Shown: positions 7,627 through 11,484 of the stretch, piece after piece
How the letters are laid out: each line of letters begins with the position of its first letter
Position numbering within the stretch: the stretch's first letter is position 1
DNA from: Burkholderiales bacterium
Lineage (GTDB): Bacteria > Pseudomonadota > Gammaproteobacteria > Burkholderiales > Burkholderiaceae_C
Direction of reading: 5' to 3'
NCBI GenBank assembly: GCA_028868305.1
Contig: JAGWUS010000010.1
Location: forward strand, 1 to 64,000
Length of the DNA: 64,000 bases
Position numbers and translations under genes: made by a program
The notes under the pieces: model-generated
Told to the model about the DNA's origin: nothing
What the model saw: only the letters and a program-made list of their open reading frames with translations
Database searches by the model: none

Positions 7627-7642
7627 CACAATTTTCCCCATG
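7627..7642 (+). promoter_or_regulatory. hemB: Original hemB start region (-10 element and exon 1 ATG)
   Basis: CACAAT (7627-7632) lies seven bases before an ATG at 7640-7642, and the intron begins at the next base. This ATG has the same promoter-start layout as other leaderless genes in the window and is best read as the ancestral hemB start codon. Bases 7629-7636 (CAATTTTC) are complementary to an intron segment and form the probable IBS2. Confidence 0.6.
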
Positions 7643-8174
7643 GTGCGACTCGATGTCGCTTCAATACATAGCTTAACCGCTATGTAGCGGTCCTTGTGAC
7701 CGCCTTATCAGCGGATGGTTTCACTCTCAGGAGGTTCCATCCGGCCCTCTCAAAAAGGGTTATTTTCGTAGCAGCCAAATGGCTCTGTTTGGCTGCTCCA
7801 ATTCGTTCCCTCAGGGAACGAAAATGGAGAACTGCGCTCCCAAGGGATGCGGTTCGTTGCCAAATAGAGACATATTTTCGGGAGAAAAGGCCTTGTTACG
7901 CCTTGTTGCAAATTACTTGTAGCAAGTGGGTACTGGTAGATGAGCGTAACCGCTCTTTGTGTTTCGTTTCCTAAGAAACCACGTCTGGAACGGCGTGACC
8001 TCGACTGTACGTGCGTCTGGAGTAATCCGGGGGTGCGGAGCTACGGTTAAACGATCTGTGCGCAAGCACACAAGATTGACGCGAGTCAGTCCCAATCTCA
8101 CGAGCAAGAAGTGGGAAGGTTGCCGAGGTAAAGGGCACGGGAAATGTAATGTGAACTCTCGTCTGAACCGTCGT

Positions 8175-8182
8175 GAAAATTG
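8175..8182 (+). other. Putative EBS2 of the group II intron
   Basis: GAAAATTG is an 8-base perfect complement of CAATTTTC at 7629-7636, placed 7 to 14 bases before the 5' splice site, where IBS2 is expected. The match argues that the intron is at a site it recognises by base pairing. Confidence 0.55.
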
Positions 8183-8616
8183 AACAGCTTACGCTTGTCT
8201 CTCCAGCAATGGGGGAGCTGTAGCCAAAAGGCACGAAGTCAGGATGCGCATGTCGTGGACTTCGCATCGTTCCCAAATGACTTCCGGCGGATAGAGAGTC
8301 CCTAACCCCATCGTCTGGCTTGCCAGTCAGATGGACACAGAGGGAAACGAGGTAAGCCCCATTCACCGCCAGCCCGCAAGGGTTGGCAACCTGCGAGTAA
8401 TCAAAGGCCATGGTGGAGGGGGTAGAGGATTGAGCAAAAAGCGAATGGCCGTCTGTAACGGACGGTATAGGGCATTTGTCCCGCAGTGAAAGCTGGCTGA
8501 CTTGCTCAGGGTGCGACAGCGTAAAGCCGTTGCGACTTTCAACTATGACCCAGAGGGTATCTGACCCTCTGGGTCAGTGCCTTCTTCAAATGGGTCTTGC
8601 CTAACTGGAGAATGGT

Positions 8617-10374
8617 ATGGAACACATCGGCAACGATGCTGCGTCTCCGGACGAATCAAGTGAATGGCACTCCATCGATTGGAAGGCGGTCATGCAGTTC
8701 GTAGGAAAGGCGCAGATGCGCATAGCGCAGGCAGAAACGGAGAAGGATTTCCGACGGGTCGCAAGACTCACACGGAGCCTGATCCGATCCTGGCAAGCCA
8801 AGGCATTGGCCGTCAGGAAAGTAACGGAAAACCAAGGGAAGCGAACGAGTGGCATCGATTGCGTCCTATGGGATACGCCAACAAAGAAATGGAATGCGAT
8901 TGGTTGTCTGAACACCAATGGGTATCGGGCTCGCCCCCTACGGCGGGTCTATATCCCAAAGGCTAACGGGAAGGAAAGGCCCTTGGGCATACCGACCATG
9001 AAAGACAGAGCGATGCAGGCACTCCACCTGCTGGCGCTGGAACCCGCTGTGGAATGTGCGTCCGATCCGAACTCGTATGGGTTTCGGAAAGGACGATCAA
9101 CACATGATGCGCGGAGCCAGCTCTTTGGGTCTTTATCCATGAAAGCCTCGGCCGAATGGGTATTAGACGCAGATATCTCTGGGTTCTTTGACAACATCAA
9201 CCACAAATGGTTGCTGAACCACGTCCACATGGACAAGGTGACGCTGCGGAAGTGGTTGAAATCTGGAGTGGTTGACGCGGGTCAACTCCAGCGCACGGAT
9301 GATGGCACGCCGCAGGGCGGCATCATCTCACCGACGTTAGCGAACATCACCTTGAACGGGTTGGAGGTCGAACTCTTGAATTTCCTTCGGGAAAAGATGG
9401 GGATCGCTCTGGCCAGAAAAGGTAAGGTGCACTTGGTCCGGTACGCAGATGACTTTGTGGTGACCGGCAGCTCAAAAGAGTTGCTTGAAACTGTGGTTCA
9501 ACCTTGGATTGTTGAGTTCTTGCGCAAGCGGGGACTGACTCTGTCCGAGGAAAAGACGCGCATTGTGCATATCGATCAGGGATTTGATTTTCTAGGGTGG
9601 AACTTCCGTAAATACGGGGGCAAGCTACTCATCAAGCCGAACCAGAAAAACGTGAAAGCGTTTTACGGCAAGGTGAAGAAGATCATCGCCACATCGCAAT
9701 CAAAGGTTCCTGTAGAAACGCTGATAAAGCGCCTGAATCCAGTCCTTCAAGGCTGGGCTCAGTACCACAAAGGGACGGTCGCAAAGCAGACCTTCAGCAA
9801 AACCGACCGCCTGATTTACTGGCGATTGATGCGTTGGGGTCTGCGGACGCATCCGCGCAAGACGACAAAATGGGTGTATCACCACTACTGGAAGCAGTGT
9901 GGTTCACGCAAACAGTTTGCCGGATTGCAGGATGACCCGTTTGGGGGTGTGGAAAGGATACCGCTACCGCTGTATCGCCTCTCGGATATGAAAATTGTTC
10001 GCCACATCAAAGTGAAGGGGGATTACAACCCGTTCCACCCCGATTGGGTTGCCTATGGAGAGAAACTGCGTGTGCAACGGATGGGTGAAACCATCTGGAG
10101 TGCGCAAAGGGCCTCGCTGTGGTTCGACCAAGGTGGTAAATGCGCTCTCTGTGAGCAAGAAATAGGCATGGCTGATGAAAACATGGACGACCACCATATC
10201 GTCTATCGGCAGCTAGGTGGGAGTGATGCTCTCTCCAATCGGGTGCTGTTACACCCGATCTGTCACAGGCGTGTCCACGCCCTAGGTTTGAAGGTTATCA
10301 AGCCGGTCCCCAGTACGGGGGACTTTAATCTGGCAAAGCAGCCGAAGGTTATGCAACCTGATGACGCTGTGTAG
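8617..10374 (+). CDS. ltrA: Group II intron reverse transcriptase/maturase with HNH endonuclease
   Basis: The 585-aa intron-encoded protein carries out splicing (maturase) and target-primed reverse transcription. RT motifs run from [16 protein letters not shown] (about residue 111) through [11 protein letters not shown] (183-193), TPQGGIISP (231) and the catalytic YADD (276-279). A maturase domain X follows (about 360-440). The C-terminal HNH nuclease has CALC (509-512), DDHH (524-527), N541 and CHRRVH (549-554); all key residues are present. GGAG precedes the ATG. The frame is intact, so the intron may be mobile. It is probably of the chloroplast-like (CL) class, by recall of motif style only. 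Confidence 0.95.
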
Positions 10375-10389
10375 CCAGTGGTCGTGCAT

Positions 10390-10423
10390 GAGCCGTGTGC
10401 GGTGAAAGCCGCATGCACGGTTC
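10390..10423 (+). ncRNA. Group II intron domain V
   Basis: The 34-nt hairpin begins GAGCCGTGTGCGG, has a GAAA tetraloop and ends with CACGGTTC. It contains the AGC catalytic-triad position and the two-base bulge expected for domain V. It anchors the 3' end of the intron and its strand. Confidence 0.9.
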
Positions 10424-10424
10424 T

Positions 10425-10466
10425 TAGGGGGGGATATAGTAGAGATACTATGTCCCTACCCTCCAC
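10425..10466 (+). ncRNA. Group II intron domain VI overlapping the hemB reading frame
   Basis: ATAGTA pairs with TACTAT over a GAGA loop, and the G-run pairs with CCCTACCC. The A at 10458 is the likely branch-point bulge. The ATG at 10450 and a TATAGT hexamer (10435-10440, nine bases before the ATG) both lie in this hairpin. Confidence 0.7.
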
Positions 10467-11484
10467 ATACACCACGCCTTTCGCTCCCTTCCCGGCAGGC
10501 CGCCCGCGCCGCCTGCGCCGCGATACTTTCACCCGCAACCTGGTGCGTGAACACGCCCTCACCTCCCACGACCTGATCTACCCGGTGTTTGTGGTGGAGG
10601 GGCGGGCCCAGCGTGTACCGATCGCGTCGATGCCGGGTGTAGATCGCCTAAGTCTGGACCTGCTGCTGCCAGTAGCCGAGGAGTGTGTGAAACTGGAAAT
10701 TCCGGTGATGGCGTTATTCCCGGTCATCGACCAGTCACTCAAGACCTACGACGGCAAAGAGGCTCTGAACCCCGACGGTCTGGTGCCGCGCGTGGTGCGT
10801 GCACTCAAAAAAGAGTTTCCGGATCTGGGCGTCATGACTGACGTGGCGCTGGACCCCTTCACCAGTCACGGGCAGGACGGCCTGCCCGACACCCGGCCCG
10901 AAACCGAAGGCTACATCCTCAACGACGAAACCGTGGAGGTGCTGGTACAACAGGCACTCACCCAGGCACGCGCCGGAGTGGACATCGTGGCGCCCAGCGA
11001 CATGATGGACGGCCGCATCGGTGCCATCCGCGCTGCGCTGGAGGCCGACAAACTGGTACACACCCGCATCATGGCCTACAGCGCCAAGTACGCCTCTGCC
11101 TTCTATGGCCCATTTCGCGACGCCGTGGGCTCGGCCAGCAACCTGGGCAAGAGCAACAAGAAGGTCTACCAGATGGACCCGGCCAACACCGATGAAGCGC
11201 TGCGCGAAGTGGCCATGGACATTGCCGAGGGCGCCGACATGGTGATGGTCAAGCCCGGCATGCCCTACCTGGATGTAGTGCGCCGCGTGAAGGATGCCTT
11301 CAAGGTACCCACGTTTGCCTACCAGGTGAGCGGAGAATACGCCATGCTCAAGGCCGCCGCCCAGAACGGCTGGCTGGACCATGACGCCGTGATGATCGAG
11401 AGCCTGCTGGCCTTCAAGCGTGCGGGTGCCGACGGCGTGCTGACCTACTTTGCCCGCGACGCCGCAAAATTGCTACAAAAATAA
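10450..11484 (+). CDS. hemB: Delta-aminolevulinic acid dehydratase (porphobilinogen synthase)
   Basis: The 344-aa enzyme condenses two 5-aminolevulinate molecules to porphobilinogen. Active-site lysines lie in MAYSAKYAS and MVKPGMP, and the metal site reads [14 protein letters not shown], the cysteine-poor Mg-dependent type. Family similarity starts at about [13 protein letters not shown], so the first five codons (MSLPS) are intron domain VI sequence. The ancestral protein probably began with the ATG at 7640, joined after splicing to TACACCACG (giving M-Y-T-T-P-F). Translation from 10450 would work without splicing. The last codons (KLLQK, stop) lie within a copy of the dispersed repeat. Confidence 0.95.

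Follow-up and report, generated by a model that had tools for sequence, protein, structure and literature searches.

A group IIB intron lineage with a probable preference for promoter -10-like boxes, seen from a member lodged behind the hemB start codon of a Burkholderiales bacterium

How does a group II intron come to lie precisely between codons 1 and 2 of hemB, the gene for porphobilinogen synthase? The question is raised by a stretch of 64,000 nucleotides (nt) from a Burkholderiales bacterium (assembly GCA_028868305.1, contig JAGWUS010000010.1, positions 1 to 64,000 of the forward strand), the whole of which is called the window below. Here a complete group IIB intron of 2,822 nt parts the hemB ATG (7640-7642) from codon 2 (ACA, beginning at 10465), an arrangement already proposed in a preliminary description of the sequence and borne out by the analysis that follows. 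In all likelihood the DNA targets of the lineage to which this intron belongs are host promoters, the intron of the window being an apparently intact, mobile IIB member. The features concerned, including the intron-binding sites (IBS) of the exons, the exon-binding sites (EBS) of the intron and the intron-encoded protein (IEP), are as follows.

7627-7632, plus strand: -10-like hexamer CACAAT of hemB, 7 nt upstream of the ATG, with the intron starting 10 nt behind it (from sequence)
7629-7636, plus strand: IBS2 in the 5' exon, overlapping the -10-like hexamer (eight-base complement of 8175-8182; covariation over 60 sites)
7637-7642, plus strand: IBS1 (CCCATG), ending in the hemB ATG at 7640-7642 (EBS1-IBS1 covariation)
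7643-10464, plus strand: group IIB intron, 2,822 nt (GTGCG 5' end; Rfam match to domains V and VI; EBS1, EBS3 and empty site)
8175-8182, plus strand: EBS2 (pairing and covariation)
8254-8259, plus strand: EBS1, CGTGGA (covariation with exon positions -1 to -6)
8292, plus strand: EBS3, a T whose partner is A10465 (pairing over 60 sites)
8617-10374, plus strand: IEP of 585 amino acids with reverse transcriptase, maturase (X) and HNH endonuclease (NCBIfam, domain matches, 6me0_C)
10388-10464, plus strand: domains V and VI (RF00029 and fold)
10450-10452, plus strand: ATG within domain VI, in frame with hemB (from sequence)
10458, plus strand: bulged A, presumed branch point (fold)
10465-11484, plus strand: hemB from codon 2 (NCBIfam NF006762, E 1.2e-152)

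The insertion in hemB was compared with those of related introns. Intron ends were tabulated in relatives, among them the 80 best-scoring loci retained of 546 that a scan of a genome collection had confirmed; L035, L036, L049, L051 and L061 were left outside the tabulation. From the 114 entries, 13 belonging to an outgroup and 8 in-clade entries without a readable 5' end were set aside, and the 93 flanks that remained represent 60 target sites whose mutual identity over 40 bases is below 62%. A TANNNT hexamer whose last base is 9-12 nt upstream of the intron, most often 10 nt, is present at 58 of these 60, compared with a mean of 2.7 and a maximum of 10 sites in 2000 rounds of mononucleotide shuffling of the flanks. 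The commonest spellings are TATAAT (16 sites), TACAAT (10) and TAGAAT (6). Both the motif and the range of spacings were picked on the 60 sites themselves, and a test on fresh sites therefore carries more weight. A search of further genomes, with a second alignment, yielded 97 loci, 90 of them with readable 5' ends; 60 lay at known sites and 21 were new. The hexamer, predicted beforehand, was present at 19 of the 21 (shuffle mean 0.83, maximum 4), which brings the preference to 77 sites in all. The proteins closest to those of the two fresh misses (L159 and L161) are outgroup proteins. Two of the original 60 are exceptions: the window itself, which has CACAAT with a spacing of 10, and L117, which the tree groups with the outgroup. 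The hexamer is missing from all eight outgroup introns inspected of the 13 outgroup entries; several of the eight share a target.

In a midpoint-rooted tree of 75 proteins, the introns found behind such boxes form a clade of 65 rows (support 97/91), within which a subclade of 19 rows (100/100) contains the intron of the window; the outgroup comprises 9 rows (100/100). Of 398 genomes in one family of the same order, 68 carry a match at E 1e-200 or better, and the IEP frame is open for at least 487 codons in 112 of the 114 entries. Judging from these sequences, it is very probable that the clade inserts repeatedly just behind promoter -10-like boxes and that the site in the window is one case. 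This lineage-wide preference was missed in the preliminary description, as was the preference of the subclade for an ATG behind the box (see below).

The position of the intron ends is established by its pairings with the exons. Over the 60 sites, EBS1 covaries with exon positions -1 to -6, the intron start being taken as 7643: a mean of 5.68 of the 6 pairs form (G-U pairs counted), as opposed to 2.87 when partners are swapped. EBS2 is complementary to 7629-7636 over eight bases, as had been pointed out, and covaries with exon positions -9, -10, -12 and -13. The EBS3 column (8292 in the window) is Watson-Crick complementary to exon position +1 at 98% of the sites, where 33% would be expected (z 10.9), and since its partner here is A10465, the 3' junction falls after 10464. 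An empty hemB site is found in the best-matching relative, the intron-free genome G032 (locus L002), which reads TCAGGCACAATTTTCCCCATG|ACATACACCAC with 32 identical bases over the junction. Both ends are thus fixed by the EBS1-IBS1 and EBS3-IBS3 covariation together with the empty site. Of the 3' junctions weighed in the preliminary description (10464 or 10467 from the hemB frame, 10466 from the AY rule), the first proves correct. The AY rule is indecisive at this site; an AY 3' end is a common but not universal feature of group II introns, and that of the window ends in TCC. A junction at 10466 is ruled out by the EBS3 covariation, the ends of relatives and the empty site. Across the lineage, with ends placed by pattern from relatives, the intron terminates in CC at 35 of the 60 sites and in AC at 25. 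The CC-ended introns still keep the EBS3 pairing.

At the 5' side the intron begins with GTGCG at 7643, in agreement with the group II GUGYG signature and directly after the ATG, as first proposed; the family alignment and the EBS1 covariation both uphold this start. Alternative GTGCG starts at 8011 and 8033 are improbable: they lie inside the Rfam domain I segment match (7979-8122, 55.9 bits), and the family alignment sets the 5' end at 7643. Rfam also returned domains V and VI at 10388-10464 (RF00029, 67.8 bits, E 3.4e-11). In the predicted fold of domains V and VI (z -8.2), domain VI has one bulged A, A10458, unpaired and 7 nt ahead of the 3' exon. The IEP frame is open and contains RVT_1, RVT_N, GIIM and HNH domains, scoring 375 bits against a cut-off of 300 in the NCBIfam model for group II reverse transcriptases, and among solved structures its closest match is chain 6me0_C (E 9.8e-162), of T.el4h. 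All three pairings that mark group IIB introns (EBS1, EBS2 and EBS3) are present with covariation over the 60 sites. The lack of EBS2-IBS2 pairing that characterizes group IIC does not apply, the pairing being present and covarying, and no plus-strand terminator-like site was found at 7400-7642 of the window, the only site scanned. By its sequence the intron would appear to be an intact mobile group IIB element; it is single-copy, with one match in the genome of the window.

The gene hemB has one match in the genome, which is rated 99.99% complete, and 339 codons are open past the 10464 junction. With AUG spliced to ACA the hemB frame would be restored, and the N-terminus predicted for the spliced message resembles the N-termini of intron-free hemB relatives. 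A comparison of hemB starts in such relatives had been suggested as a test of the insertion point: in the 27 of 29 loci that are readable the gene begins at the ATG corresponding to 7640-7642, and 26 of the 27 have [CT]ACAAT 6-8 nt before it, so that the -10-like hexamer first noted ahead of the window's hemB is a conserved one. A conserved -10-like box about 7 nt before the ATG is the sequence mark of a leaderless gene. hemB itself is unmentioned in the main text of a study of transcription start sites in B. cenocepacia (PMC4603805). On the side of hemB facing hemJ (6952-7434, minus strand), between which two genes the intron is situated, Rfam detects an anti-hemB small RNA (RF02837, Burkholderia RNA 7) at 7415-7499 on the minus strand (56.6 bits; gathering threshold 49.5). 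This match sits divergently upstream of hemB, outside the intron.

Is the hexamer a promoter element of the host? One downstream sense open reading frame (ORF) was taken at each of 40 of the 60 sites, and 35 of the 40 match NCBIfam at E 1e-10 or better, some of them falling under the curated cut-off; the sense ORFs were chosen by the analyst, and the figure therefore says nothing on orientation. The genes that follow the insertions include guaB, pyrG, gltX, rpsO, ribF, ilvE, argH, dapA, ndk, tig, ubiE, uvrC, erpA, secB, ahcY and psd and, less firmly, lptD, ispB, mrcA and amgK; to these are added hemB and one tRNA-Leu gene. The box is also kept where the intron is absent. In intron-free relatives of the window's host it was found at all 26 readable guaB loci (of 30, a set that includes the window's own genome), 20-21 nt from the gene, and at all 27 readable pyrG loci (of 30), 37-43 nt from the gene. 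In the available text on B. cenocepacia, the mapped -10 consensus is TAnAAT, the commonest lengths of 5' untranslated regions (UTRs) are 21-30 nt, and a TA-rich motif immediately precedes leaderless genes (PMC4603805).

The nested subclade that includes the window's intron has a further peculiarity: at 12 sites the insertion follows directly upon an ATG. Eleven of these ATG-type sites have the TANNNT hexamer, which lies exactly 6 nt before the ATG in ten and 9 nt before it in one; in hemB the box CACAAT stands 7 nt before the ATG. Of the 19 rows of the subclade, five lack a readable 5' end and one, L066, follows ATTG| instead of an ATG and occupies the leader of a radC-like gene, possibly through a shift of target. 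The joined frames are open at the ATG-type sites with the exception of L039. Insertions of either kind, ATG-type and UTR-type, precede amgK-like genes, each in a different genome (L065, L107). The spacing between box and ATG suggests that transcription would start at the ATG, as in leaderless genes. According to the available part of a study of Cupriavidus metallidurans, 4.67% of primary starts there are leaderless (PMC7563307). If transcription starts at the ATG, the 5' exon of the RNA comprises just three or four bases and IBS2 remains untranscribed.

From these arrangements a mode of target recognition may be proposed. The ribonucleoprotein would recognize a sigma70-type -10 box plus the bases behind it, EBS2 pairing from the downstream portion of the box onwards, EBS1 with the last six bases of the 5' exon and EBS3 with exon base +1. 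At the usual spacing the initial T and A of the box are beyond the reach of the RNA pairing and yet are kept; since in other group II introns, to go by the available part of PMC3898094, the protein reads a few bases adjoining the IBS, T-16 and A-15 are probably read by the IEP. An insertion 9-12 nt behind the box would fall about where transcription starts, so that the host promoter could transcribe the intron. In UTR-type members it cuts no coding sequence; in the start-codon subclade it comes right after an ATG that is usually 6 nt (7 nt in hemB) behind the box. One might go further and suppose that the clade enters through the open complexes of RNA polymerase, with the start-codon subclade using leaderless AUGs, often with a replacement AUG in domain VI, and the host gene surviving with or without splicing. 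With +1 placed 7 nt behind the box, EBS2 and EBS1 would pair with exon positions -13 to -1, that is, with about -9 to +4 of the promoter. This interval is close to the usual transcription bubble and roughly matches the non-template strand exposed there. Taken as a whole, this fuller account is nonetheless unlikely.

Several observations weigh against promoters as the targets. A -35 signal (TTGACA, at 15-19 nt spacing) is no better than in shuffles among the 58 sites: four of six matches occur at 11 of them, 6.8 being expected, and at least five matches at none, 0.8 being expected. TTG occupies the expected -35 position at 7 of the 77 sites, against 3-10 for other positions, and an extended -10 was not found (5 of 77 sites). 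The sites contrast here with B. cenocepacia, where, in the text available, 93% of the promoters examined have a weak -35 motif (PMC4603805). At the 51 UTR-type sites with spacing 10, purines make up only 8-31% at 7-10 nt behind the box, and such a pyrimidine-rich stretch at the supposed +1 is unusual for a transcription start. The intron-bearing guaB and pyrG loci, which are in other genera, have a distance of about 26-27 nt from box to ATG with the intron removed, which differs from the 20-21 nt (guaB) and 37-43 nt (pyrG) of the relatives searched. In a mechanical gene-start test 28 of 60 sites scored, the controls giving 210 of 1302 and the opposite strand 17; this modest enrichment is spoiled by in-frame starts upstream and is not relied on. 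Exon position -14 covaries with the column adjoining EBS2 (z 6.7), off the pairing register. The window's own box, CACAAT, departs from TANNNT. At L039 the joined frame stops after 49 codons, which may reflect a decayed gene or a different start. Finally, splicing should be impeded if transcription starts at the ATG, since the pre-mRNA would then lack IBS2 together with half of IBS1.

It is a real possibility, if somewhat less than a probable one, that the target is a mere sequence motif, composed of a protein-read TA and AAT-like bases read by EBS2, with no link to transcription; promoters would then be hit simply for containing the motif, and insertions elsewhere would have been lost by selection. 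The missing -35 signal and the pyrimidine-rich start region speak for such a motif, as does the inclusion of half the hexamer in IBS2. However, EBS2 covaries, so that the box persists while the RNA half varies, and at 35 of the 40 sites scanned the intron is followed by a named gene on its own strand, with the reservation as to choice of sense ORFs made above. Translation of hemB might proceed mainly from unspliced RNA by way of the domain VI ATG (10450), from which hemB would read MSLPS|TYTT, making splicing of the host message dispensable. An in-frame, stop-free ATG in domain VI is present at 8 of the 12 ATG-type sites, 4 of the 48 UTR-type sites and none of the 12 outgroup loci (Fisher p 7e-5, uncorrected for shared descent); its distance to the junction is 15 or 18 nt at the eight sites and 21 nt in L069. 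The enrichment is no more than suggestive, because the ATG-type introns are one clade and their sites are non-independent. Moreover, 4 of the 12 lack an in-frame ATG there (L039, one of them, has an ATG out of phase), the window's ATG is buried in the predicted stem of domain VI, and the EBS pairings and IEP frame are intact, all of which makes this route rather unlikely. That the intron has crippled hemB, the host relying on another hemB gene or on imported haem, is scarcely credible: ATG and codon 2 are indeed 2.8 kb apart, but the genome's sole hemB match is this one, its frame is open beyond an in-frame junction, and intron and IEP are intact.

Outside the clade with the box, seven outgroup introns (L053, L055, L056, L057, L162, L163 and L165) split tRNA-Gly genes in the anticodon arm, and ARAGORN calls tRNA-Gly once the flanks are joined. 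A circular 2,837-base 'plasmid' of P. aeruginosa (L152; CP075775.1, 1-2837) resembles exactly one such intron, its end (..CTACCCGAC) adjoining its own start (GTGCGACACG). It could represent a circular form of intron DNA or an artefact of assembly.

Among the papers listed in searches of open-licence literature, taken by title and start of abstract, none reports a promoter-directed group II intron lineage, a coverage that leaves most subscription journals aside, nor was a -10-box target preference described in the literature searched; the intron itself would be of the group IIB mobile type. As far as its available text goes, a review (PMC4424553) credits bacterial group II introns with three target specificities, namely homing sites, terminators and attC, and places most of these introns outside housekeeping genes. 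PMC8919778 measures the distance to terminators, and the word 'promoter' is absent from its main text. Promoter boxes would be a fourth specificity, and targeting them would offer a reason why such introns can adjoin essential genes. It would further provide a natural test of the minimal 5' exon length for group II splicing and a clue as to whether DNA is made accessible to reverse splicing by transcription, and the introns themselves would be candidates for retargeting to promoters.

Among known systems, T.el4h and EcI5 (group IIB1, CL) resemble the intron of the window in IIB architecture, in the use of EBS1, EBS2 and EBS3 and in an IEP with reverse transcriptase, X and endonuclease domains. 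The T. elongatus introns are sited in a tRNA gene, an insertion sequence element, other introns and intergenic DNA, and a promoter-box target goes unmentioned in the portion of the source available. Group IIC introns, which insert after intrinsic terminators or at attC, likewise follow a transcription-related or generic DNA motif and not one gene (available part of PMC4424553). Unlike them, the lineage described here has its motif near the supposed transcription start, would read it with EBS2, EBS1 and EBS3, and encodes an IEP with an HNH domain. A group II intron at the stop codon of groEL in Azotobacter reportedly also lies at the edge of an essential gene's frame; there it is the stop codon of one gene that is concerned, here the start codons of many.

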